DNA of 44,870 nucleotides from Beijerinckiaceae bacterium (GTDB lineage: Bacteria; Pseudomonadota; Alphaproteobacteria; Rhizobiales; Beijerinckiaceae). Position 1 is the first letter of the stretch, and each line of letters starts with the position of its first letter. The notes under the pieces were generated by a model. The model searched no databases. It was not told where the DNA came from and saw only the letters and a program-made list of their open reading frames with translations. Shown here piece after piece: positions 1-23,829 of the stretch. Both the position numbers and the translations under genes were made by a program. Where the stretch lies: contig CANJWR010000013.1 of NCBI GenBank assembly GCA_947478455.1, positions 1-44,870 on the forward strand, written 5' to 3'.

Positions 1-1197
1 CTTATCGCTCTTGCGCAGCACACCAGTGAATCTGGGCGCATGACACGCATCTATGGCTCGCTGGAACACCGGGCCGCAATGCAGTCGGTGTCGGGCTGGA
101 TGCGCGAAGCAGGCATGGACGCGCATGTGGACGCGGCCTGCAATGTGGTCGGTCGATACGAGGCTGCGGGCGAGGGCGCAAAAACCCTGATCATTGGTTC
201 GCATATCGATACTGTGAAGAACGCCGGTATTTACGACGGCAATCTGGGTGTGGTCGTCGGCATCGCGCTTGTGGCTGAACTGTCACGACGAAAGATGCGG
301 ATGCCGTTTGCAGTCGAGGTGATTGCGTTTGGCGACGAGGAGGGTGTTCGGTTTGCCACGACGTTGAGTGGATCGCGCGCTGTGGCTGGTCAGTTTATCT
401 CTTCCTGTCTCGATGAGCGCGACGCTGGCGGTCAGTCGCGGCGGGAGATGTTGCAGAGCTTTGGTTGTAATCCCGACGCCATTTCGCAAGTTGCGCGCAA
501 TCGGGAAGACATTCTCGGCTATGTCGAGGTGCATATCGAGCAGGGTCCGGTGCTGGAGGCGAGGAATTTGCCGCTGGGCATTGTGACTGCGATCAATGGC
601 GTGTCGCGCGGAGAAGTGCGTGTGCGGGGAATGGCGGGCCATGCGGGCACGCTGCCGATGGATATGCGTCATGATGCGCTGACGGCAGCGGCCGAAATGC
701 TTCTGGCCGTTGAGGCGCGTGGACGCGCCGAGCCGGGACTCGTGGCGACGGTGGGCGTCCTCAGCATGCCCTTCGGGGCGATCAATGTTGTTCCGGGCGA
801 AGTAAAGTTCACACTGGATATTCGCAGCGCCAGCGACGCCAATCGGCTTGTGGCGGTCGAAGATATCAAACGGGCGATCGTCCGCATTGCCGCCGCACGC
901 GGCGTAAGTTGTGAAATCGATATGCGTTATGAAGCGCTGGCTGCGCCGTGCGACGCCGGCTTCATGGCGGGATTGTCGCGCTCCGTTGCGGGCGTCGGCG
1001 TCGAGCCGTTTGAACTGCCTTCGGGCGCGGGCCACGATGCGATGGCGTTTCGCGGCATCTGGCCGATTGCGATGTTGTTTGTTCGCTGCCGTGGCGGCGT
1101 CAGCCACAATCCAAAAGAATACGCCTCTCCTGCCGATATCGGACAGGCCGCAAGGGCCCTGTTTGATTTCGTGACTGATCTCGGAGTCAAATCATGA
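1..1197 (+). CDS. M20-family amidohydrolase (allantoate amidohydrolase / N-carbamoyl amino acid hydrolase type), 5' partial
   Basis: The reading frame is open to the first base of the window, and the residues before the first Met (LIALAQHTSESGR) fit the family, so the gene starts upstream. Counting from the Met at base 40, the metal-site signature is complete: GSHIDTV with His55, YDGNLG with Asp66, the DEEG pair at 99-102, HIEQGP with His165, and a late VSHNPKEYA His. Families with this pattern use two metal ions to hydrolyse the amide of N-carbamoyl compounds such as allantoate or N-carbamoyl amino acids, in the cytoplasm. The stop overlaps the start of the ammonia-lyase gene (ATGA), which indicates translational coupling. 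The exact substrate is not readable from the sequence. The class is certain; allantoate is only one option, since no other ureide gene is present. Confidence 0.9.
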   Translation, partial: LIALAQHTSESGRMTRIYGSLEHRAAMQSVSGWMREAGMDAHVDAACNVVGRYEAAGEGAKTLIIGSHIDTVKNAGIYDGNLGVVVGIALVAELSRRKMRMPFAVEVIAFGDEEGVRFATTLSGSRAVAGQFISSCLDERDAGGQSRREMLQSFGCNPDAISQVARNREDILGYVEVHIEQGPVLEARNLPLGIVTAINGVSRGEVRVRGMAGHAGTLPMDMRHDALTAAAEMLLAVEARGRAEPGLVATVGVLSMPFGAINVVPGEVKFTLDIRSASDANRLVAVEDIKRAIVRIAAARGVSCEIDMRYEALAAPCDAGFMAGLSRSVAGVGVEPFELPSGAGHDAMAFRGIWPIAMLFVRCRGGVSHNPKEYASPADIGQAARALFDFVTDLGVKS

Positions 1198-2825
1198 CAG
1201 TAACAATTGATGGTCGCAAACTGACGGCTGCTCGCGTTGCGCGCGTGGCGCGCCCTAATGCGACGGGGCGCTACGAAAAGGCGAAACTCGATGCGCAGTC
1301 GCGCGAGCGCATTGTGGCGACGCGAAAATATCTCGATACGAATTTCATGAATGACCAAGCGCCACTCATGTATTCGTTCAACACCGGCGTCGGGCTTTTC
1401 AAGGACCAGCGCGTGTTGATGCGCGACATGGTCGAATATCAACGCAAGAGCGTTTACGCCCATGCGACTGGCGTCGGCGAGCCTTTCGATGAGGACGTGA
1501 CACGCGCGACCATGTTGTTGCGCGCCAATGCCTTTGCGTCGAACTATTCTGGTCCGCGCATTGAGCTGGTTGATCGTCTGATCGAATGTTTGAACGCGGG
1601 CCTGCATCCGGTCATTCCGCAAAAGGGCTCAGTCGGCGCATCAGGCGATCTTGCGCCGTTGGCGCATATGTCAGGCGCCGTTTGCGGCTTTGCAGAAGCC
1701 GAGATGATCTACAAGGGCAAGCGCATGCCGGCGCGCGACGCCTTGCGCAAGGCGGGCCTGTCGGAGACGTTCGATCTCGGCGCGAAGGACGCCTCATGTC
1801 TCATTAACGGCTCGACTGTTTCGCTGGCGCTGGGCGTTCTGGCGCTTGAGGATTCGAAAAAGCTACTGAAGCATGCCGACATTGCACTGGCGCTGACGCT
1901 CGAATGTCTGCGCGGCGAACTGGCGGCCTTCGATCCGCGCGTTCATGCGGCGCGGCCGCATCCGGGGCAGGCCGCAAGTGCGCGCAATCTGTTGCGCATT
2001 GCGGGTGACTCGCGTCGCTGCTCGGAAGATGCGCGCATGACGGTCTTTCCCGAAGAAACCCGCGCCGCAGGCGTGAAGCCGCCGCCCCGTGTGCAGGACG
2101 TTTATTCCCTGCGTTGCGGGCCTCAGGTGCATGGCCCGGTTCGGGAGTCTCTTGCCTATATCGACCGCATCATCGGGACGGAAATCAATTCTGCGACCGA
2201 TAATCCGCTGGTTTTCGACAATGGCAAGGGCGGGCTGGAGATCATCTCTGGCGGGCACTTCCACGGTCAATATGTGGCGCAGACGATGGATCTGCTGGCC
2301 ATGTCGATCACCGATCTGGGATCGATCAGCGAACGGCGCTTGGCGCGTCTGATCGATCCCACCATGAGCTATGGATTGCCACGCAATCTGCTGGCCGGAA
2401 AGAAGGGGCTGAATACGGGCTTTGCGACCGTGCAATGTTCCATGTCGGCTCTGGTGATGGAGAACCGCACGCTCTCCATGCCGGGTTCTGTGGATTCCAT
2501 TCCGGGCAAATCGAACGCCGAGGATCATGTGTCGAACTCCACATGGTGCGGTCGCAAGGCGCGGACCATCGTGGCGAACGCCGAACAGGTCGTCGCCTGC
2601 GAAATCCTTATGGCTGCGCAGGCCCTGTCGCTGGTGGCGGATGTCGCGAAGGATCATCCGATAGGCTCGGGCAGCCGCGCAGCACTGGAGGCCGTGCGCA
2701 AGATCATCCCCCCCGCACTCGACGGCGACCGCTGGTACGGGATCGAAATGCAGCAGGCGCTCGATCTCGTGCGCTCGGGCGCAATCGTCGAAGCGGTTGA
2801 AGCGGCTGTCGGAGCTCTTGAGTGA
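1194..2825 (+). CDS. MIO-dependent aromatic amino acid ammonia-lyase (HAL/PAL/TAL family)
   Basis: A 543-residue protein of normal family length. The MIO cofactor triad Ala149-Ser150-Gly151 lies in GSVGASGDLAPLAHMSG. The catalytic Tyr60 (YSFNTGVG) and His90 (YAHATGVGEP) are present, as are YSLRCGPQVHG and NAEDHVSNST, which carry the conserved Arg and Glu. The family removes ammonia from His, Tyr or Phe to give the alpha,beta-unsaturated acid. His90 fits histidine or tyrosine lyases better than phenylalanine lyases. No hutU, hutI or hutG is beside it, and it is coupled instead to an amidohydrolase and a glycerate kinase, so it is probably not the housekeeping HutH. It overlaps both neighbours by four bases (ATGA upstream, GTGA downstream). 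Confidence 0.9.
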   Translation: MTVTIDGRKLTAARVARVARPNATGRYEKAKLDAQSRERIVATRKYLDTNFMNDQAPLMYSFNTGVGLFKDQRVLMRDMVEYQRKSVYAHATGVGEPFDEDVTRATMLLRANAFASNYSGPRIELVDRLIECLNAGLHPVIPQKGSVGASGDLAPLAHMSGAVCGFAEAEMIYKGKRMPARDALRKAGLSETFDLGAKDASCLINGSTVSLALGVLALEDSKKLLKHADIALALTLECLRGELAAFDPRVHAARPHPGQAASARNLLRIAGDSRRCSEDARMTVFPEETRAAGVKPPPRVQDVYSLRCGPQVHGPVRESLAYIDRIIGTEINSATDNPLVFDNGKGGLEIISGGHFHGQYVAQTMDLLAMSITDLGSISERRLARLIDPTMSYGLPRNLLAGKKGLNTGFATVQCSMSALVMENRTLSMPGSVDSIPGKSNAEDHVSNSTWCGRKARTIVANAEQVVACEILMAAQALSLVADVAKDHPIGSGSRAALEAVRKIIPPALDGDRWYGIEMQQALDLVRSGAIVEAVEAAVGALE

Positions 2826-13001: not shown

Positions 13002-14135
13002 ATGGCGGACGAACCTCAATTCACCAGCAAGCGCCTCGGCGAAAGTGTCCGCATCCAGCTTGGCGGGAACTGGAATGTGAGCAACGGCCGTGTCCTCGAA
13101 CGGTTGGCGCTCGAAATGCCCGCCGGCGTCGGAGATGCGAAGGAAGTTGTTTTCGACCTTGCGCAGATTGTGTCGCTCGACACAGCAGGCGCGTGGATGA
13201 TTGGGCGCATCTGCAAGGAAATCTCTGACAAGGGCGCCACGACAGCAATCGAGCAGGCGACCCCGTCGCAGGACATCCTGCTGAAGGAAGCCGCCTACCG
13301 CGAGTTTGCGCATGAGCCTGTGCGCAAGGGCTATTTTATAGTCGATATGCTGGTCGACATCGGCAAGACCGTGGCCGGCGCGGTTCATGATCTCGTCGGC
13401 GGCGTGGCGTTTTTCGGCGAAGTTGTCGCGTCGCTGTTTCGCATCATCCGGCGCCCGGCGCGGTTTCGTTTCACATCCGTGGTTTTCCATCTGGAGAATT
13501 TCGGCTTCCGTAGTTTGCCGATTATTGCGCTGATCAATTTTCTTGTCGGCGGCATTGTGGCCCAGCAGGGAATCTTTCAGCTGAGCCGCTTTGGCGCCTC
13601 TACCTTCACGGTAGATCTGATCGGCATTCTGGTGCTGCGCGAACTGGCGGTGTTGCTCACCTCGATCATGGTGGCGGGCCGGACCGGGTCAGCAATCACC
13701 GCAGAACTCGGCTCCATGAAGATGCGCGAGGAAATCGACGCCCTGAGAGTCATGGGGCTCGATCCGATCGACGTGCTGGTGATCCCGCGTCTGCTGGCTC
13801 TGCTGATAGCGCTGCCGTTGATGACGTTTCTGGCCGATCTTTCGGCCATATTCGGAGGTCTGCTGGTGGCCTGGTACTATGGCGGGATCAGTCCCGACGT
13901 TTTCATGGGTCGCCTGCAAAGCGCCATTGCGATGAACACGTTTCTGGTCGGCCTCATCAAAGCCCCGGTGATGGCGCTGATTATCGGAATGGTTGCCGCA
14001 ATCGAAGGTTTTCGGGTCAAGGGCTCCGCGGAATCGCTCGGTCAGCAGGTGACGGCCTCGGTGGTGAAGTCCATTTTCATGGTGATTGTGATCGACGGAA
14101 TTTTCGCCATGTTCTTTGCCGCGATCGATTATTGA
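13002..14135 (+). CDS. mlaE: MlaE-family ABC transporter permease with N-terminal STAS-like domain
   Basis: A 377-residue protein. Residues 1-105 form a STAS-like domain (ESVRIQLGGNWNVSNG, EVVFDLAQIVSLDTAGAWM). The rest is the MlaE permease, with FRSLPIIALINFLVGGIVAQQG, the coupling-helix region MVAGRTGSAITAELGSMKMREEIDALRVMGLDPI and further membrane helices. The complex moves phospholipids or other hydrophobic compounds between inner and outer membrane. The N-terminal STAS fusion is common in alphaproteobacteria; in Escherichia coli the STAS protein MlaB is separate. Seven bases separate it from the ATPase gene. It heads a four-gene operon ending at the terminator at 17008. Confidence 0.93.
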   Translation: MADEPQFTSKRLGESVRIQLGGNWNVSNGRVLERLALEMPAGVGDAKEVVFDLAQIVSLDTAGAWMIGRICKEISDKGATTAIEQATPSQDILLKEAAYREFAHEPVRKGYFIVDMLVDIGKTVAGAVHDLVGGVAFFGEVVASLFRIIRRPARFRFTSVVFHLENFGFRSLPIIALINFLVGGIVAQQGIFQLSRFGASTFTVDLIGILVLRELAVLLTSIMVAGRTGSAITAELGSMKMREEIDALRVMGLDPIDVLVIPRLLALLIALPLMTFLADLSAIFGGLLVAWYYGGISPDVFMGRLQSAIAMNTFLVGLIKAPVMALIIGMVAAIEGFRVKGSAESLGQQVTASVVKSIFMVIVIDGIFAMFFAAIDY

Positions 14136-14142
14136 GCCGCCG

Positions 14143-15009
14143 ATGGATCAGGAAAATCAGGCCGAGCAAATTCCGGTTCCACGCGAGGTTGCGGTCGCCC
14201 CCCCGACCCCAAAGCCCGCCAGCGAACGCGAGGTGGCGATCCGGGTGCGCGGCCTGACGGTGGGGTTCGGCACAAAGGTTATTTTGAAAGACCTTGATCT
14301 CGATGTGTATCGCGGCGAAGTGCTGGGTTTCGTCGGTGGATCGGGCACAGGCAAGTCGGTTCTGACCCGGACGATTCTGCGTCTGGTGGACAAGCAGGCC
14401 GGAACCATCGAGGTGTTCGGCAAGAACCGCGATACAATCTCGACGAAAGATAACCGGTTGCTGGAGCAGCGGTTCGGGGTGTTGTTTCAGCAGGGGGCTC
14501 TGTTTTCAGGCCTCACCGTCAAGCAGAACATCCAGATTCCCATGCGGGAATATCTCAAACTGTCGCAAAAGCTTATGGACGAGCTTGCCCTGCTCAAGAT
14601 CGAGATGGTCGGATTGGCGGCCGATGCGGCGGACAAGTTTCCATCAGAATTGTCAGGCGGCATGATCAAGCGCGCTGCGCTGGCGCGCGCGTTGTCGCTT
14701 GATCCAGATATTCTTTTTCTCGACGAGCCGACCTCCGGCCTCGATCCCATCGGGGCGGCGGAATTCGACGAACTGATCGCCACACTGCAAAAGACCCTCG
14801 GCCTCACTGTCTTCATGGTGACGCATGATCTCGATAGCCTCTATTCCATCTGCGACCGTGTGGCGGCGCTGGCGGAGAAAAAGATCATCGCCGCCGGGAC
14901 GATCGAAGAAATGCTGGCCTGCGAACATCCATGGGTGCGTTCCTATTTCCACGGGAAACGCGCACGGCAGCTGATTCCTGCTGGGGATGGACATGGCCCG
15001 GCGTCTTGA
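14143..15009 (+). CDS. mlaF: MlaF-family ABC transporter ATP-binding protein
   Basis: A 288-residue ATPase with Walker A GGSGTGKS at 65-72, Q-loop FQQGALFSGL near 115-124, signature LSGGMIKR at 170-177, Walker B ILFLDE at 190-195 and switch His in VTHDLDSL. The signature with GGM rather than GGQ is usual for MlaF proteins. An N-terminal Pro-rich extension of about 28 residues precedes the domain. It powers the MlaE permease from the cytoplasmic side. The start is ATG 14143, seven bases after the permease stop. Confidence 0.94.
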   Translation: MDQENQAEQIPVPREVAVAPPTPKPASEREVAIRVRGLTVGFGTKVILKDLDLDVYRGEVLGFVGGSGTGKSVLTRTILRLVDKQAGTIEVFGKNRDTISTKDNRLLEQRFGVLFQQGALFSGLTVKQNIQIPMREYLKLSQKLMDELALLKIEMVGLAADAADKFPSELSGGMIKRAALARALSLDPDILFLDEPTSGLDPIGAAEFDELIATLQKTLGLTVFMVTHDLDSLYSICDRVAALAEKKIIAAGTIEEMLACEHPWVRSYFHGKRARQLIPAGDGHGPAS

Positions 15010-15070
15010 AAGCGCCCCGAAAGGCTGCGAAAGTTGAACAGGCGACAAGGTCGCCGCCGAAAGTGAATTT

Positions 15071-16135
15071 ATGGAAACCCGCGCCAATTACGCCCTGATT
15101 GGATTTTTCACCTTGACCGTGATGGCGGCTGCGGTGGCGTTCGTCATGTGGTTTTCGGGCGCGGACAAGCGCGGCACGCGGGTGGTCTACAAGGTGGTCT
15201 TCACCACTTCGGTTTCCGGGCTTTCGCGCGGTTCGCAGGTGCTTTTCAACGGATTGAAGGTCGGCGAAGTCACCAGAATCGACCTCATGGACAATCCCGG
15301 TCAGGTCTACGCGATGATCGAACTGGACCGCCGAACTCCGGTCAAGGTCGATACGCGCGCACGCCTGGAATATCAGGGCCTCACGGGTGTCGCTTCTATT
15401 GCGCTCAGCGGCGGTACGGCGGAATCCCAGACGCTGCAGGCGGATGCGGAGGAGTTTCCGATCATTCTGGCAGACCGCTCGGAATTTCAGAACATTCTCG
15501 AAACCGTCCAGAGACTCTCCGGCAAGACAGAGGCGGTGCTGGGCAATCTTGACCAGCTTATTACGGCCAATTCGTCCAATGTGACCCAGACGCTTGGCAA
15601 TTTGCGGACGTTCTCGGATGCGCTGGCGGCCAATTCCAACGGCGTAAAGGATCTGATGGCCGGGCTGGCCGATCTCGGCCGCTCGGTGAAGCCGGTCGCT
15701 GAAAACCTCGAAAAGCTGACAAAAAACCTCGATGACCGGGTGGCAGCCGTCGACCCGAAAGCGGTGTCGTCCATCGTGGCGAATTTCGATCAGCTTTCCG
15801 CCAAGTTGAATTCTTCCGCGGACAAGATTGATGGTGTGCTGGCGGGCCTCAACGGCTTCCTGTCTGGCAACGACGGCAAGGGCGTGATGGGCGATGTGGG
15901 CGAAGCGGCGAAATCCATCCGCAAACTGGCTGACAATCTCGACCAGCGGACGAAGGATCTGACGGCTGGCATCAACCGCTTCACTGGCGCCGGGCTGCGA
16001 CAATACGAGGCGCTGGCGGCGGACGGGCGGCGTACTCTTGACGAGATCAACCGCACCTTGCGGTCGCTGGAGAAGAATCCGCAGCAGCTGATCTTCGGGT
16101 CGAAGCCAAAAATTCCCGAATATACGGGGCGTTAG
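15071..16135 (+). CDS. mlaD: MCE-domain substrate-binding protein (MlaD family)
   Basis: A 354-residue protein with a single N-terminal membrane helix (about 7-27, YALIGFFTLTVMAAAVAFVM) and an MCE domain at about 38-118 (VFTTSVSGLSRGSQVLFNGLKVGEVTRI, then LEYQGLTGVASIALSGG). A long helical C-terminal part (130-340) follows, rich in Leu/Asp spacing (LADLGRSVKPVAENLEKL) and likely to form a hydrophobic channel or coiled bundle. MCE proteins form hexameric rings that receive lipid from the permease. It is longer than E. coli MlaD (about 183 residues), resembling the long-MCE type. It lies 61 bases after the ATPase gene. Confidence 0.92.
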   Translation: METRANYALIGFFTLTVMAAAVAFVMWFSGADKRGTRVVYKVVFTTSVSGLSRGSQVLFNGLKVGEVTRIDLMDNPGQVYAMIELDRRTPVKVDTRARLEYQGLTGVASIALSGGTAESQTLQADAEEFPIILADRSEFQNILETVQRLSGKTEAVLGNLDQLITANSSNVTQTLGNLRTFSDALAANSNGVKDLMAGLADLGRSVKPVAENLEKLTKNLDDRVAAVDPKAVSSIVANFDQLSAKLNSSADKIDGVLAGLNGFLSGNDGKGVMGDVGEAAKSIRKLADNLDQRTKDLTAGINRFTGAGLRQYEALAADGRRTLDEINRTLRSLEKNPQQLIFGSKPKIPEYTGR

Positions 16136-16366
16136 TTTTCTGCATTTTACCCGGATGCGTGGCCAGCCTCAGCTGTCACAATTTGCGCAGACTACCCGCC
16201 GACGCAATTTATCCTGTTATTGAAGGAACCTCGCCCGCATAACCGGCTTGCCATCTTGTGCGCGCTGTTGTTTCCATATGGTGAGCCATAAATCGGGATG
16301 TTGAATTATTTGAGCCGGTTGGCGATGTCGCCGGCGTGGAGTCAGAGTTTGGAAGCGTCCGGTCGT

Positions 16367-16975
16367 ATGCCGCGCTCACCTTCCGGAGGCGCGAAAGTTG
16401 CGCGCATGTTCCGCGGGTTTACGCTGGCTTTCGTGCTCGGCGGACTCGCAGGCTGTGGCGGCTCGCCGCCAGCCACTTTCGATCTGACAGCTCCAGTGGC
16501 CGGTATCGGTGGGCGCGCAGCGCGCGGCCAGATTGTCGTGACCGAACCCAATGCGACATCGCCGGTGGACGGAGACCGGATTGTGGTGCGAACCGGGCCG
16601 GAGGCGGTTGCCTTTCTGTCTGGCGCACAATGGGCCGAACGACTGCCGAGGCTCGTACAAACCCGATTGATCCAGACGTTCGAAAACGGACGCTCGCTTC
16701 GGTCCGTTGGCAGGCCGGGCGACAAGATGGTCGCCGATTCAAGCCTCAATTCGGAAATTCGCCGGTTCGAAATCAATGTGACGACCGGGCTGGCGGAAGT
16801 TGAGGTTTCTGCCAAGCTTGTCGGCGAACGCAGCGGCCGGATCATCGCCGCCAAAATCTTTTCGGCCCAGTCGCCCGGTTCTGCGTCCGATGGCGCCGCA
16901 GCAGCAAGCGCGCTCGACGCCGCCCTGTCGCAAGTGCTGCGGCAGATCGTGGTCTGGACCACATCGCAGACCTGA
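16367..16975 (+). CDS. ABC-type transport auxiliary lipoprotein (PqiC/DUF330 family)
   Basis: About 202 residues. A lipobox LAGC (Cys codon near 16454) follows a hydrophobic segment FTLAFVLGGLAGC, so the protein is lipidated. The mature start SPPATFDLTAPV and the later RIVVRTGPEAVAFLSGAQWAERLPRLVQ match the auxiliary component that accompanies MlaEFD/PqiAB-type systems and probably reaches the outer membrane. Start codon: ATG 16367 or 16406 both give a signal peptide; 16406 would give a 17-residue one, 16367 a 30-residue one. It is the last gene of the Mla operon, 231 bases after the MCE gene, and is followed by the terminator at 17008. Confidence 0.85.
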   Translation: MPRSPSGGAKVARMFRGFTLAFVLGGLAGCGGSPPATFDLTAPVAGIGGRAARGQIVVTEPNATSPVDGDRIVVRTGPEAVAFLSGAQWAERLPRLVQTRLIQTFENGRSLRSVGRPGDKMVADSSLNSEIRRFEINVTTGLAEVEVSAKLVGERSGRIIAAKIFSAQSPGSASDGAAAASALDAALSQVLRQIVVWTTSQT

Positions 16976-17056: not shown

Positions 17057-20000
17057 TTACTCGAAACGACCCGCCGCATGGGCGAGCATCGTGTAGACCT
17101 TGCCTGTGTCGGAAGTCAGGTACGAGTGAACAAGGCCGCCGTCGCGGTCATCGCGACCGACTTCCGTCAGCAGACGTTCGAATTCGCGCGTGTAGCGATT
17201 CACGGTTTCGCGGAAATCGGCGTCCGCCCGGTAACGGCGACGGATTTCGTCGAAGGTCTGCTGGCCCTGCAGGGTGTAGAGCCGGCGCGAGAAGACATTC
17301 CGTTCGCCGCGATTGTAGCGCTCCCAAACGTCAACGACCGTGTCGTGATCGACCATGCGGGCAATATCGAGCGAGATCGAATCCAGCGTATCGGCTGCTT
17401 TCGGGGCGGGCGGCGGCGGGGCTGCTTCATCGCGAGATGCGCGAGCAAGCAGGTCCGAAATCCAGCCCGGACCGCGATCGGACGGCGGACGGGCAGGCGT
17501 AGCCGGCGCCGGGCGGCGGATATCTTCACGCGGCGGCGTAATTGCCGGTTGCGTTATGCGCGGCTCGGGGGCCCGGAAAGGCTCCGGTGTGCGATAGGAT
17601 TCTGGCTCAGGCGCACGGAATGTCGGCGCGGGTTCCGGTGCGCGCGGGGGAGGCGCGCGGAATACCGCAGGCTCAGGCTGGCGCGGAGCCTCGACGATGC
17701 GCTTGGGCTCGGGCGAACGATTCACAAGCGCCTCGACCGAGCGTGGCGATTCAGCGTTGCGGGCGACCGCAACAGGTTCGACCACATCGTAGGCGCGGCC
17801 CGAGCGGGCGACGAGATCGGTGAGTTCGCCGAGCGCCTTGATCTGATCATTGACCACACGACGCAGCGCGGCGGCCTGTTCGGCGGTTTCGCGCGGCAGA
17901 TCGGCCGTTCCGCGACGAACCTCCTGGCGGGTCGCTTCCAGTTCCTTCTGGATCTGACCCGACACGTCGCGCAATTCAGCGGCGGACGCCTGGAAGCGCT
18001 GCGTGGCCTGCGCGAACATCTCGGACATTTCTGTATTGGCCTGATCGTAGGCGGCGCGCAAAGCAGCGGCGGTGCGCTCGCGTTCCTTGCCGCCTGCGGT
18101 CCGTATTTCCTCGAATTGCGAGCCGATCATGCCCGCAACTCCCTGCGTGGTTTCCGACAGGAAAGTGCCGATGTCGCGCGCGCGCGCTTCCGCTTTTGCG
18201 AAGGATTCGTCCATGATCGACTGGAACGAGCGCAGCACATTGTCGAAGTCGCCGGTCCGGGAGCTGACTTCCGACAGGAGTTCCTGAAGCGAGCGGTGCC
18301 GCTGGTCGACGATGCGGTCGATGTCATGCTGCGAGCGCGCGAATTCCGAAGCGCTCTGTTCGAGGTTCTGCTGCTCTTCCTGCAGGCGTGAAGCAAGTGC
18401 GCCAGCATTTTCGAGCGTCGAGGACGCCGTCTGGTTGAGCGTGATGACCTGCGAGGAGATGGCTCCCAGAGAGTTCTGGAAGTCCTTCACGCGGCTGCCG
18501 AGCGCGCCCTCGATTGCGGTGAGGTTCGTACCCGCGTCGCCGATGATGGTCTGCAGCGCATGGTTGGTCGAGCCAAGCCGGTCGAGCACGCTCACCATTT
18601 CGCTCTTGAGCTTGTCATTTGCGGCGAGGAGCGAAGCGACGGAATTGCTGGCGCTCGTTTCGAGCGCATGACGCAGGCCGGTGGTCGAGTGATCGACCGC
18701 GGCTGAAAGCTCCATGCGGGTCTTGCCAAGTTGCTGGACAATCGACGAACCGCGCTGCTCGATCGTATTGGCGACGAGCTCGCCGACGCTTGCCACTTCC
18801 TGGGCAATTTCGCTGCCGCGCGAAGACAGCATTTCCACAAGCATCGGCCCCTTGAGGTCGAACAGGTTGTGCAATTCCGACGAGCGGTTGGTGAGCGTGT
18901 CGTGCAGCTGTGTGGCGCGGCTCGACAGGGTCTGCTCGATTTCGCCGATGCGGCGGCCGATTGCGTCCTCAAGCGTTTGCGGATTGAGAACTTTCGCCAC
19001 GCGCTCGACGCCGTCGCCCAGAACGCGGGCGATTTCGAGCGCATTGTTGGCGAGCGTATCACGCACATCGGCGCCACGCGCTTCGAGTCCCGAGTGAATC
19101 TTCTCGGTGATCAGTTCTATGGCGGCGGCGACCTCGGAGGTGCGCGTAGCAGCTGTATGCTCGAAGTCGGTGAGGCGAGCGTCCATCGCCTGCGTGAGTT
19201 CGCTCGCGCGTGTCGCCGTCGTTTGGTCAAAGGCCTCCAGCTGATGGCCGATTGCGCCGGCAATCTCTGCCGTGCGGGTTGTGGCGATTCTGTCGAATGT
19301 GTCGATGAGGCGACCAAGCGTCGACGCGATGTTCTGTGTCCGCAAGGCCGTGGCGCTGTCGAGAGTCTCGAGTTGCTGGCCAAGCGTTGCGGCGACTTCC
19401 GACGTCTTTGTCGAAGCGGCCTGTTCGAATGTCGCAATATGCGAGGCCAGCGTTTCGGCGATACTGGTGGCCTGAGTGGCGGCAATATGGTCGAAGGAGG
19501 TGAGTTGTCCGGCAACGGCGGCGGTCACTTCGCTCGCGCGCGTCGCGGTCGTGCGGTCAAAGAACTCGATTTGATCGCTGATGGCGTTCAACACTTCGTT
19601 CGTACGGGTCGAAGCAGTCTCGTCGAACAGGCGTAGCTGTGCCTCGACGGTCTGTGCGGCGTCGGCCGAGCGTTTGACCGCCTGTTCGTTGAACGTGCGG
19701 ATATAACCGTCGAGCGCACGGGCGATGGCGAAAGTCTTTTCGTTGGCGGCTTCCTGGAAGCGCCCGATGTGACCGTCGAAGGTCGCCGCGACTTCGATGG
19801 TCTTGAACTCTGCGGTCTCGTTGAAGTTGCGGACTTTCGCTTCAAGCAGAGTCGCAGCTTCGTGGGTGCGCTGGGCGAGACGATCCGTGAAGGCTTCAGC
19901 GTGGGTGGTGAAGGCCGCCTCGACGGATTTGAGCTTCTCGTTCACCTCGTTGGTGAAACCATCGGTGTGCGAGGCAATTTGCGCCGTCAGCGCGCTGCCA

Positions 20001-22645
20001 TGCGCCAGAACGGCTTCCTCGAAGCCTTGCAGGCGGTCGATGATCGTTTCGTTGATGCGGTCGCCGTGCATGCCGACGGCTGCAATCGCTTCGCCTGCCG
20101 AGGCCGCAAAGCGGTCGTGCAGTCCGGTTGCATGGGCGTCGAGCTGCGCCCGCACCAGCGACTGTTGTTCTTCCAGACGCTCTGCGAATTCGTTTCCGGA
20201 CAACAGGAATTGCTGGCGAGCGGAATCCGTCTGGGCCGCAATGCTGGCGGCCAGATGGTCGGCGGACGCCGCCAGATCGTCCTGAAGCTGACGGCCCTGT
20301 ACCTGGACGGTTTCCTGCAGGCGGTCCGCGGTTTCGGCGACGCGAATCGCAAGTTCGTTGCCTTCGCCCGATATGAGCGAAGCAATGCGAGCGCTTGTGG
20401 CGTCGAGGCGACCGGCGATGTTGTCGCTTTGCAGCGATACTGTCTCGACGAAATTCGTCGCGCTGGCGGCCACAAGACCCGCGAGGGTATGCCCGTGCTG
20501 GTTGATCGTATCGGCGAAGTTTGTGGCGTCGCCGGTAAGCCTGCTGGCGACCGCATCGCCCTGACGGGTGAATGTATCGGCGATTTCGCTCGACGCTATC
20601 GTGATGCTGTCGGTCAGCGTCGCGTTGTGCGCGGCGAGAGTCTCGGCCAGATGCAGGGCGGCGGCGGCGATGCGATCACCCAGAGAATCGCTGTGCGTCG
20701 TCAGCGTTTCGGAAAGGTAGCCCGTGGTGTGTTGCAAATTGGCGGCAATGGATTCCGAGCCCGACGACATGATCGAAGCGATCTGGGTCGTCGCTGAATC
20801 CACACCGGCGGTAATCGTGCTGGTGTGTGTGGAGAGGGTTTCGGCAATCTTTCCGGTGACGGATTCGATGCCGGTGGTCAGGGACTCTGCATGCTCGGCG
20901 AGCGTCCGCGCCAGCAGCGACGTGGAGGCGTCCACCTTGCCGGTCAGATTTTCACCGTGCGACGACAGTGTAACGGCAAGCTTGTCGGTAGAGGCATCGA
21001 GTTTGCCGGTCAGATTTTCGCTGTGCGACGTCAGCGTTTCAGCCAGCTTGCCGGTTGAGGCGTCGACCTTGTCGGCGAGCGACTCACTGTGCGACGTCAG
21101 TGTTTCCGCCAGCTTGCCCGCAGATGCGTCGACCTTGCCGGTGAGAATCGCGCTATGAAGGGCGAGCGTATCGCCGAACTCGCTGGAGGAACGCTCCAGT
21201 TGCGACGAAAGGGCCGCAGCGCCGGAAGCGAAATTCTCAGCGAGCTTCGAACTGGCCTCGTCGAGGCGCGAGGTTAGCGAGTCGCCGCGCGTCGAGATGG
21301 TTTCGGCGATGAGAGATGCGGTTTCGCTCAGGCGCGCGGACAGGTTGTCGCCGCGCGATGAAATCGTATCGGCAATGCGCCCGCCGGTCTCATCGAGACG
21401 AGTTGCTACTTCCGCGCCCCGCAGGCCCAGATCGGCCACAAGAGCTTCGCCAGTCGTCTTGAGGCGATGGTCCAGCGAACCCACCTGTTCGGCGAGTTTT
21501 CCGGACACGGTTTCGGAAGCTTCCAACAATTTGCGAGCGACGTCTTCGCCGGTGCCGGACAGACGCGTGACAATATCAGCGCCATGGTCGCCGATTTGCT
21601 GCACGAGCGTTTCGCCGGTGCGGGCCAGCGTGAGGCTGATCTCTTCGCCCTTCGAGCCCAGCGAAGTCGTGACGCGCGCGCCGGCGTCGCTGACGCGGTC
21701 GGCAATCTGGCGGCTTGCCTGTTCGAGTTCTTTGGAAAGGTGTTCGTGTGCGCCGGTGATCGCCAGCTTCACGCGGTCGGCATTGGAGGAAATCGCCTCG
21801 CGCTCGGAGGACAGTTCATCGACAAGAGCCCGCATGCGGCGTTCGTTGTCGGAATAGGAGCGTTCGAGATTGGAAACCTCCGAACGCACCACTGTTTCGA
21901 GTTCGCTTGCGCGGGCGAGCGCACGCTCGATCCCGTCGCCCATGGAGGCGACTTCGCGTCGAATGGCTTGCGAGAGGGTCACGACCTTTTCGGTCGCCAT
22001 GGATTCAGGCTCCGCGAGACGGATTGCGACTTCTGTCATGGAGCGAGCGGTGAGGCGCATTTCCTGCGTACGGCGGATCATGGTTCCGGCGACAAGGAAG
22101 AAGATCGCGGGGCCGATGGCGGCAAATCCCAGGAGTGCGAGATTATGCTGCGGCATCGAAAGAAGTTCGCCAGTGCGCCACAAACTGAATGCATAAAAGG
22201 CGGAAAGGCCAAGCCAACCTGCGGCGAGCAGAAAACCGATCACCACGGGGGCGCGCGAAGGACGCACCTGCAGAGCCTGAAGAATCTGCCCGACGGAGCG
22301 CTGATCGTCATTGGCCGCAACGGCTGTCGGGCGCGGTGGCTGCAGCGGGGTTGCGGAGCGCTCGGCGAGCGGCTCGTTGATGCGCAGTTTCGGCAGATCT
22401 CCGTCGTTGATCTCGGGCAACCGCGACGTTGATTTCACCGCCGGTATTTCGGCGCCGAATGTTTCGTCGATCTTGGGCAATTTCGGATCGGGCGCAGGCC
22501 GGTCGAATGCGGGGTCGGGATCCGCCGGAATTTTGAGATCGGAGGTCGTCCCGGCGTCATTCGCCGTGGGCGTCAGGTTCAAAGCCTCCTCGATGGCCGA
22601 AAGCGCCGCCGCAGTCGGATCGAGAGGTTTGGGTTGGGTCGCCAT
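17057..22645 (-). CDS. Giant membrane-anchored protein with about 47 tandem 22-residue helical repeats
   Basis: An 1,862-residue protein, the largest in the window. Residues 1-120 are Pro/Asp-rich and cytoplasmic in character. Two hydrophobic segments follow at about 132-154 and 168-189, then a charged helical stalk to about 300. From 301 to about 1334 the chain reads as consecutive 22-residue units with no register break. Early units share the core DASTGKLAETLTSHS; later units share FD-TAATR-SEVAAAI. A coiled region and a Pro-rich stretch (about 1650-1750, many APEP motifs) precede a conserved C-terminal domain of about 110 residues (IARMVDHDTVVDVWERYNRG to the end). The repeats resemble apolipoprotein-type 11/22-mers, which is the likely reason homologues are labelled apolipoprotein- or kinesin-like. 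No enzymatic motif is seen. The start has GAGG upstream and faces an Hpt gene across a region with CtrA and DnaA motifs. A structural role at the envelope is inferred. Confidence 0.9.
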   Translation of the reverse strand: MATQPKPLDPTAAALSAIEEALNLTPTANDAGTTSDLKIPADPDPAFDRPAPDPKLPKIDETFGAEIPAVKSTSRLPEINDGDLPKLRINEPLAERSATPLQPPRPTAVAANDDQRSVGQILQALQVRPSRAPVVIGFLLAAGWLGLSAFYAFSLWRTGELLSMPQHNLALLGFAAIGPAIFFLVAGTMIRRTQEMRLTARSMTEVAIRLAEPESMATEKVVTLSQAIRREVASMGDGIERALARASELETVVRSEVSNLERSYSDNERRMRALVDELSSEREAISSNADRVKLAITGAHEHLSKELEQASRQIADRVSDAGARVTTSLGSKGEEISLTLARTGETLVQQIGDHGADIVTRLSGTGEDVARKLLEASETVSGKLAEQVGSLDHRLKTTGEALVADLGLRGAEVATRLDETGGRIADTISSRGDNLSARLSETASLIAETISTRGDSLTSRLDEASSKLAENFASGAAALSSQLERSSSEFGDTLALHSAILTGKVDASAGKLAETLTSHSESLADKVDASTGKLAETLTSHSENLTGKLDASTDKLAVTLSSHGENLTGKVDASTSLLARTLAEHAESLTTGIESVTGKIAETLSTHTSTITAGVDSATTQIASIMSSGSESIAANLQHTTGYLSETLTTHSDSLGDRIAAAALHLAETLAAHNATLTDSITIASSEIADTFTRQGDAVASRLTGDATNFADTINQHGHTLAGLVAASATNFVETVSLQSDNIAGRLDATSARIASLISGEGNELAIRVAETADRLQETVQVQGRQLQDDLAASADHLAASIAAQTDSARQQFLLSGNEFAERLEEQQSLVRAQLDAHATGLHDRFAASAGEAIAAVGMHGDRINETIIDRLQGFEEAVLAHGSALTAQIASHTDGFTNEVNEKLKSVEAAFTTHAEAFTDRLAQRTHEAATLLEAKVRNFNETAEFKTIEVAATFDGHIGRFQEAANEKTFAIARALDGYIRTFNEQAVKRSADAAQTVEAQLRLFDETASTRTNEVLNAISDQIEFFDRTTATRASEVTAAVAGQLTSFDHIAATQATSIAETLASHIATFEQAASTKTSEVAATLGQQLETLDSATALRTQNIASTLGRLIDTFDRIATTRTAEIAGAIGHQLEAFDQTTATRASELTQAMDARLTDFEHTAATRTSEVAAAIELITEKIHSGLEARGADVRDTLANNALEIARVLGDGVERVAKVLNPQTLEDAIGRRIGEIEQTLSSRATQLHDTLTNRSSELHNLFDLKGPMLVEMLSSRGSEIAQEVASVGELVANTIEQRGSSIVQQLGKTRMELSAAVDHSTTGLRHALETSASNSVASLLAANDKLKSEMVSVLDRLGSTNHALQTIIGDAGTNLTAIEGALGSRVKDFQNSLGAISSQVITLNQTASSTLENAGALASRLQEEQQNLEQSASEFARSQHDIDRIVDQRHRSLQELLSEVSSRTGDFDNVLRSFQSIMDESFAKAEARARDIGTFLSETTQGVAGMIGSQFEEIRTAGGKERERTAAALRAAYDQANTEMSEMFAQATQRFQASAAELRDVSGQIQKELEATRQEVRRGTADLPRETAEQAAALRRVVNDQIKALGELTDLVARSGRAYDVVEPVAVARNAESPRSVEALVNRSPEPKRIVEAPRQPEPAVFRAPPPRAPEPAPTFRAPEPESYRTPEPFRAPEPRITQPAITPPREDIRRPAPATPARPPSDRGPGWISDLLARASRDEAAPPPPAPKAADTLDSISLDIARMVDHDTVVDVWERYNRGERNVFSRRLYTLQGQQTFDEIRRRYRADADFRETVNRYTREFERLLTEVGRDDRDGGLVHSYLTSDTGKVYTMLAHAAGRFE
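20937..21134. repeat. Tandem 66-bp DNA repeats inside the giant gene
   Basis: Three neighbouring 66-bp units are still clearly similar at DNA level, each containing a version of GTGCGACGTCAGTGTTTC and ending near GCGTCGACCTTG. They encode successive 22-residue units of the early repeat class. Nucleotide similarity is strongest here, suggesting that these units arose by the most recent duplications in the gene. Confidence 0.8.
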
Positions 22646-22959: not shown

Positions 22960-23373
22960 ATGTCCACGCAGGCCGTGCGTCAATTTGGTTCGCGCCAGTC
23001 CTTCCAGCTCCCGGCCTCGCCGGCGGCGGACCGGCCCATCGACCTTGTTCATTTGTCCCGCCAGACCCTGGGAGACCGGGAGTTGGAAATAGAACTGCTC
23101 TCGCTGTTCGAGCGGCAGGCCGCTCAGGTGATGGAGCGCCTTCTACAGCCTAACGGCAACGGCGAGCGCCGCTGGCGGCACGATCTGGCCCATACGCTTA
23201 AAGGTTCGGCGCGGGCGATCGGAGCCGGGCGCGTGGCGGCCTGCGCACAGGTTTTCGAGGAAGCCTTGTTCTCCGCCGCGACCGATGCCGAGATTGCCGC
23301 CATTCTGGCCGAGCTTGGGCAGGCGGTAGAGGAGTCTCGGGTTGCGGCGCTGGATTTCCTGTCGGAAGGCTAG
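22960..23373 (+). CDS. Hpt-domain phosphotransfer protein
   Basis: A 137-residue protein with a disordered N-terminus and one histidine phosphotransfer domain at about residues 27-135. The phosphorylatable His78 lies in DLAHTLKGSARAIGA, the canonical Hpt signature with Lys and Gly-Ser after it. Such proteins pass phosphate between a hybrid kinase and response regulators. No kinase or regulator is encoded nearby, so partners are elsewhere. The start is ATG 22960 with ACGGAG upstream; a frame open to 22828 would include the DnaA box. Divergence from the giant repeat protein and shared CtrA/DnaA motifs suggest cell-cycle-linked expression. Confidence 0.88.
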   Translation: MSTQAVRQFGSRQSFQLPASPAADRPIDLVHLSRQTLGDRELEIELLSLFERQAAQVMERLLQPNGNGERRWRHDLAHTLKGSARAIGAGRVAACAQVFEEALFSAATDAEIAAILAELGQAVEESRVAALDFLSEG

Positions 23374-23508: not shown

Positions 23509-23829
23509 ATGGCGAAGATCACTTTTATCGATAATGAAGGCGCGAGCCGGACCGTTGACGCCGAGGACGGCGCGACCGTGATGGAAACCGCTCTGCGCAA
23601 CGACGTTCCGGGCATCGAGGCTGAATGCGGCGGCGCCTGCGCCTGCGCGACCTGCCATGTCTATGTAGAAGAGTCCTGGTTCGCCAAACTGCCCAAGGCC
23701 GAGCAGATGGAAGAAGACATGCTGGATTTCGCCAGTGATGTCCGCCCGACCTCGCGCCTCTCGTGCCAGATTCGCGTCAGCGCCGCTACCGACGGTCTGG
23801 TTGTCACGACCCCGGAAACGCAGGGCTGA
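23509..23829 (+). CDS. Adrenodoxin-type 2Fe-2S ferredoxin
   Basis: A 106-residue ferredoxin with cluster ligands Cys40, Cys46, Cys49 and Cys86 ([11 protein letters not shown], and RLSCQIRV), the C-x5-C-x2-C...C spacing of adrenodoxin/putidaredoxin types. An extra Cys44 lies between the first two ligands. These proteins deliver single electrons to cytochromes P450, to Fe-S assembly or to other oxygenases. A ferredoxin reductase gene follows 118 bases downstream in the same direction, the probable electron source. Confidence 0.94.

Follow-up and report, generated by a model that had tools for sequence, protein, structure and literature searches.

A probable ortholog of the growth-pole protein GPR/RgsE with a 22-residue helical repeat array and a divergent Hpt gene in a Beijerinckiaceae bacterium

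Gene and protein architecture

Our analysis concerns one very large gene on a stretch of 44,870 nucleotides (below called the window) from a Beijerinckiaceae bacterium of the order Rhizobiales (assembly GCA_947478455.1, contig CANJWR010000013.1, positions 1 to 44,870). The gene lies on the minus strand at 17057..22645, stop codon included, and is an open frame of 1862 amino acids; the plus-strand frame across 17057-22645 is interrupted by stops. A preliminary description of the locus had found no function that could be named. This proved wrong, since the family is that of GPR of Agrobacterium tumefaciens (Atu1348) and RgsE of Sinorhizobium meliloti (SMc00190), for which localisation, depletion and interaction data are published (PMC8262873, PMC7327166). 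The function of the protein is thus already known in relatives.

All features of the protein are encoded on the minus strand. Hydropathy places two membrane helices near the N terminus, at residues 134-152 (22190..22246) and 169-187 (22085..22141), as the preliminary description had proposed, and both appear as helices in a low-confidence model of residues 97-501 that contains helices of 122 and 157 residues. They are followed by a long repeat array, by a proline-rich linker at residues 1641-1750 (17396..17725, 28% proline) and by a conserved, all-helical C-terminal domain at residues 1743-1862 (17060..17419).

Repeat register and periodicity

Within residues 301-1334 the identity at a lag of 22 residues was 27.1%, far beyond chance (z = 22.7 relative to 300 shuffled versions); harmonics appeared at 44 and 66, and the other lags gave z = 4.7 at 7, 3.8 at 11, -0.2 at 14 and -1.5 at 21. 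The signal of the hydrophobic residues Ile, Leu, Met, Phe and Val (ILMFV), scanned over periods of 3-30, peaked at 3.67 residues, with a power of 83.7 at 11/3 versus 0.4 at the heptad value of 3.5 and a second peak at 22/10 (power 85.0). The 22-residue (2 x 11) period and the absence of a heptad signal within the array, both claimed from the first inspection, were therefore confirmed. In 66-residue windows the 11/3 phase was steady (1.91-2.30) from residue 280 to 1225, and the register holds to about residue 1202. A register slip with a heptad-like stretch follows at residues 1203-1269 (18839..19039): residues 1204-1269 have a period of 3.51, the next two 66-residue segments have phases of 0.64 and 0.26, and the shift amounts to about 1.6-2 residues. 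Leave-one-out profiles found no unit in register after residue 1203, the better placements being weak and at shifted offsets. The strict array thus comprises about 41 units in residues 301-1202, and of the roughly 47 units without slip that had been counted up to residue 1334, the unbroken register stands from 301 to about 1202 and fails beyond.

Two classes of units, as first described, could be recovered. Class 1 comprises 18 units (residues 411-806, 20228..21415) with the consensus ..LA.RLDASA..LAETLSSHG, in which positions 2, 6, 13 and 17 are nearly always one of ILMFV. Class 2 comprises 11 units (residues 939-1180, 19106..19831) with the consensus.TFDETAATRTSEVAAAL..QI, where the same holds for positions 2, 13, 17 and 21. 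All 18 and all 11 units scored best in register with leave-one-out profiles. The units that precede class 1 (residues 301-410, 21416..21745) and the mixed-sequence units between both classes (residues 807-938, 19832..20227) keep the hydrophobic phase but show at most a weak match to the class profiles. A single 66-bp tandem array, with 3.3 copies and 78% matches, is still recognisable at the DNA level within class 1 (20925..21145), and the other units have therefore diverged in DNA.

The C-terminal domain and the distribution of the family

Of 150 genomes from the order, 146 (our own included) have one match each to the C-terminal domain and four have none, which bears out its supposed conservation. 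In the search of the class it was present in 78 of 193 genomes, among them that of the window and two of its family. The window's genome holds one full copy of the gene. A genus mate (G001) carries extra frames of 943, 634 and 1439 amino acids (on C16, C28 and C30) that match the N-terminal/repeat part, beside its main copy. A protein-mode search of a plasmid collection with the domain returned six records (four Sinorhizobium, one Shinella, one Sphingomonas). The Sphingomonas protein has 774 amino acids, shows 36% identity over the domain, and falls outside the published list of RgsE homologs beyond Rhizobiales, which names Emcibacterales and Rhodospirillales (PMC7327166).

Residues 1743-1862 were modelled as seven helices from 40 sequences (predicted local distance difference test (pLDDT) 79.6, predicted template modelling score (pTM) 0.76). 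Searched alone, they had no match in Pfam at E <= 1 or in NCBIfam at E <= 0.01, and the PDB gave no convincing one. The S. meliloti counterpart of the domain gave two weak Pfam matches below cut-off, the best being DUF6178 (E = 0.031, 13.2 versus 25.5 bits).

Probable identity as a GPR/RgsE ortholog

The link to GPR and RgsE runs through a protein of 2089 amino acids from S. meliloti Ak57, annotated as a kinesin, whose gene lies on a replicon in the plasmid collection. The window protein aligns to it with 47% identity over residues 1696-1861, 32% over 1446-1625 and 30% over 98-759. Both carry the Pfam Apolipoprotein domain (PF01442), the window protein in nine stretches (E = 3.9e-67) and the S. 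meliloti protein in 12 (E = 7.6e-77). Their hydrophobic periods are 3.67 and 3.654, and the best repeat lag is 22 in the window protein and 44 in the S. meliloti protein. Gene order is also common to both loci, with a divergent Hpt gene followed by a 2Fe-2S gene. RgsE is described as a protein of 2,089 amino acids with 42% identity to GPR (PMC7327166); its likeness to the window protein, seen via the Ak57 protein, thus comprises both ends, the type of repeat and the neighbours. GPR is described with two N-terminal transmembrane domains, about 75% of its length PF01442-like, a proline-rich region of 110 amino acids and a C terminus that its function requires (PMC8262873). The window protein resembles it by this description in the two N-terminal helices, the long PF01442-like region, the proline-rich region and a conserved C-terminal domain, and differs in length (1862 versus 2115 amino acids); the ring at the growth pole is known for GPR. 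Since both ends, the PF01442-like repeats, the proline-rich linker, the C-terminal domain and the neighbours agree, the window protein is very probably the GPR/RgsE ortholog of a Rhizobiales bacterium, that is, a putative cytoplasmic scaffold anchored in the inner membrane. TipN of Caulobacter crescentus has been stated to be similar to GPR (PMC8546619). TipN is shorter than the window protein, at 882 amino acids (PMC13170164), and in Caulobacter vibrioides, a member of our control set, no PF01442 match was found.

Several points weigh against this assignment. The S. meliloti protein was named RgsE by length, architecture and species rather than by accession, and the data on localisation and phenotype all come from relatives. 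The model of the N-terminal part was built from one sequence, with a pLDDT of 66. PF01442 matches below cut-off occurred in seven of 14 control genomes, and repeats alone fit many long helical proteins. The findings on MreB point both ways. MreBCD is reported as absent in Rhizobiales (PMC8546619), and in our own genome, a 92% complete draft, and in 12 genus mates no MreB-like match rose above 58 bits; yet weak matches in 20 of 21 genomes, our own included, pass the 27-bit Pfam cut-off, and we take these for putative Hsp70-type proteins, judging by the long frames. One of the 21 genomes gave 426 bits; this match, in a genome of the order (G013, C9:282-1265), occurs together with a short GPR-family protein (a frame of 934 amino acids).

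Repeat chemistry and alternative readings

The 22-residue units had first been read as the hallmark of lipid-contact helices of the apolipoprotein type. Exchangeable apolipoproteins are secreted proteins with proline punctuation between their units and without a membrane anchor. One of them, apoA-IV, shares with the window array helical units of 22 residues with a hydrophobic stripe, and we compared the array with the 160-residue stretch of apoA-IV that aligned to it. This stretch contains 4.4 prolines per 100 residues, whereas the array has none in residues 301-1202 and two in 301-1334. The apoA-IV stretch is also more basic, with 16.9% Lys and Arg versus 6-8% in residues 411-1180 and 11.8% in 301-410. 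The arc that holds 80% of the residues ILMFVWY spans 47 degrees in residues 411-806, 177 in 807-938, 98 in 939-1180 and 125 in 301-410, versus 97 in apoA-IV. As medians of 44-residue windows the arcs are 76, 157, 120 and 113 degrees in the same order, versus 86 in apoA-IV, so that class 1 is near apoA-IV, the other parts are wider, and stripe width cannot separate the two. The mean hydrophobic moment is 0.28-0.32 in residues 411-1180 and 0.44 in 301-410, versus 0.42 in apoA-IV. Stripe width and hydrophobic moment thus give no clear split between the repeats and apoA-IV, which counts against the idea that the repeats serve to pack a rod.

The relatives provide a further line of evidence. We surveyed lags of 15-59 in the 91 family proteins of at least 1100 amino acids, four of them cut at the end of their locus, and found a top repeat lag with z >= 6 in 87. 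The top lags were 29 (34 proteins), 22 (25), 44 (10), 33 (4), 58 (4), 40 (3), 36 (3), 25 (2), 55 (1) and 51 (1); as many of the 91 are close relatives, these counts are not independent trials. All 87 top lags fall in the set 7a+11b (26 of the 45 lags surveyed), as do 324 of the 326 protein-lag combinations with z >= 6. The hydrophobic period of the family proteins of this size ranged from 3.566 to 3.670 (median 3.648), and in 29 proteins of 600-1099 amino acids from 3.546 to 3.652. Repeat length therefore varies yet, in these proteins, stays within the set that keeps the stripe, which argues that a continuous helix, and not a fixed 22-residue unit, is under selection. We read this as selection for a single hydrophobic stripe along an uninterrupted helix, the repeat length being free to vary within this limit. 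Conservation of the stripe speaks for a rod packed against further helices.

An alternative that keeps the GPR/RgsE identity and differs solely in the job of the repeats is that they are true lipid-contact helices of a membrane-tethered, apolipoprotein-like protein whose task at the pole would be to sort or sequester lipids, a view raised for the GPR repeats in PMC8262873. The units of 22 residues, the strong PF01442 match and a phmmer match to apoA-IV (E = 3.3e-7) agree with it, as do the stripe of class 1, the moment of residues 301-410 and a report of impaired cell shape after apoA-IV-like stretches of GPR had been deleted (PMC8262873). Moreover, a helix lying on a membrane would meet a similar limit on its stripe, and genes for a Mla-type phospholipid transporter lie directly downstream in the window. 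However, the array is almost free of proline, residues 411-1180 are poor in Lys and Arg and lower in moment than apoA-IV, the repeats of relatives come at 25, 29, 33, 36 and 40 residues, and the Mla genes do not adjoin the S. meliloti gene. The same phmmer run also matched a WD-40 protein at E = 6.1e-7, so that E-values of this kind are inflated by repeats. We therefore consider lipid contact possible but rather unlikely; of the first description, the 22-residue units stand, and the step from them to lipid contact is weak, given the near absence of proline and the variable repeat lengths.

That the protein is a generic long coiled coil, unrelated to GPR and alike through repeat composition only, we regard as very improbable: repeat-driven similarity does come easily, as the matches in the control genomes illustrate, but agreement with the S. 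meliloti protein extends to the C-terminal domain, which is not repetitive, to the membrane region at the N terminus and to the order of the neighbouring genes. A ZorA-like protein, which in Zorya anti-phage systems is a motor stator that bears a long cytoplasmic helix, is hardly credible. NCBIfam ZorA_1 does match the window protein (E = 3e-7) and the S. meliloti protein (1.5e-19), but at 29.1 and 70 bits versus a cut-off of 190 and with the best stretches in the helical repeats, and a defence gene would not be expected in single copy throughout the order.

Neighbouring genes and the Hpt link

Upstream of the GPR/RgsE-family gene and divergent from it lies a gene for an Hpt-domain protein of 137 amino acids with an HTLKG motif (22960..23373, plus strand; Pfam Hpt E = 2.1e-8), followed by a 2Fe-2S ferredoxin gene (23509..23829, plus strand; Pfam Fer2 E = 6.6e-13), in the same order as in S. 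meliloti. The Mla-type genes (MlaE, an ATP-binding cassette ATPase, MlaD and an auxiliary lipoprotein) occupy 13002-16975 on the plus strand, convergent with the GPR/RgsE-family gene; S. meliloti has other genes in their place. An aromatic amino acid lyase family gene is found at 1194-2822 (plus strand).

We searched 124 loci of the family with a profile built from the Hpt neighbours, counting opposite-strand genes up to 2.5 kb upstream. In 71 of them the family gene has a divergent Hpt neighbour: 17 of 21 loci in the window's order (the window included), both Rhizobiaceae from the plasmid collection, 9 of 21 loci elsewhere in the class and 43 of 80 named loci. Restricted to loci with at least 1500 upstream bases, the count is 61 of 97. 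Because these same neighbours served to train the profile, Hpt genes of other types may escape it, and the counts do not amount to an independent detection rate. No Hpt gene was detected with it in four of 21 loci of the order, in 12 of 21 elsewhere in the class and in 20 named loci with enough sequence, 16 of which are titled Brucella, Ochrobactrum, Falsochrobactrum or Pseudochrobactrum; in one of the 20 (L147) the family frame has just 533 amino acids. In the 1.73 Mb searched only two other matches occurred, one on the same strand 3.1 kb away (L123) and one in a class-level genome (L109), where a hybrid kinase with HisKA, HATPase, REC and Hpt domains lies directly upstream of the GPR-family gene (L109:278-2944, plus strand). 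Pfam Hpt itself exceeded its cut-off in the window and in S. meliloti, and the Sphingomonas neighbour reached 16.6 bits versus a cut-off of 24.6. The window's genome contains four Pfam Hpt domains.

Among the 71 Hpt neighbours and the two other matches, 73 aligned sequences in all, 65 retain the phospho-acceptor histidine. It is replaced by K or R in four Phyllobacterium loci and by L, M or W in four of the Sphingomonas type (L063:5616-5909, L092, L093 and L094), so that phosphotransfer cannot be the role in every lineage.

Within the literature we searched, an Hpt neighbour of this family gene looks new. The adjacency and the kept histidine suggest a phosphorelay link to the growth pole. Tentatively, and with somewhat less than even confidence, we propose that the GPR/RgsE scaffold and the divergent Hpt protein form an old polar signalling module, in which a dedicated Hpt partner would set when and where a new pole grows, and in which one genome would use a hybrid kinase with its own Hpt domain as the scaffold's partner instead. 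As the C-terminal domain and an Hpt-like neighbour reach Sphingomonas, the pairing may predate polar growth in Rhizobiales. The Hpt protein may also be the partner that orphan hybrid kinases lack, for example RdsA, which controls shape in Rhizobium etli and is reported to have no Hpt gene nearby (PMC9022086). RdsA is one candidate for an upstream partner, and the same source reports normal GPR expression under RdsA depletion, which counts against a transcriptional link.

A model for the growth pole

In A. tumefaciens GPR assembles at the growth pole into a 200-nm ring made up of six foci, its loss leads to round cells with misplaced wall synthesis and its excess to extra growth poles (PMC8262873); a gpr deletion is described as viable in minimal medium, with spherical cells (PMC9239152). 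RgsE contacts TolQ, RgsA and RgsS, and its loss slows growth without stopping it (PMC7327166), and the Brucella abortus homolog localises to the new pole (PMC9938171). The orthology, architecture, repeat geometry and neighbours come from our own analysis of the window, and the ring, the need for rod shape and the contacts with TolQ, RgsA and RgsS would carry over from these relatives by analogy. The two N-terminal helices would tether the protein to the inner membrane, and the very long, nearly proline-free helix with its continuous hydrophobic stripe (the 11/3 repeat) would form an extended or folded-back rod. This rod might pack with other copies, helix packing presumably being the main job of the repeats. 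The proline-rich linker would hold the compact helical C-terminal domain, which may dock partners or regulate function. Many copies together could then designate the new pole for unipolar wall growth and keep growth factors there, and the adjacent Hpt protein might feed in a phosphorelay signal.

In Rhizobiales, unipolar growth is organised by GPR/RgsE; what a specialist might not expect here is the Hpt neighbour and the variation in repeat length. A phosphotransfer gene beside the family gene in more than half of the loci, 71 of 124, makes the regulation of the growth pole open to genetic testing.
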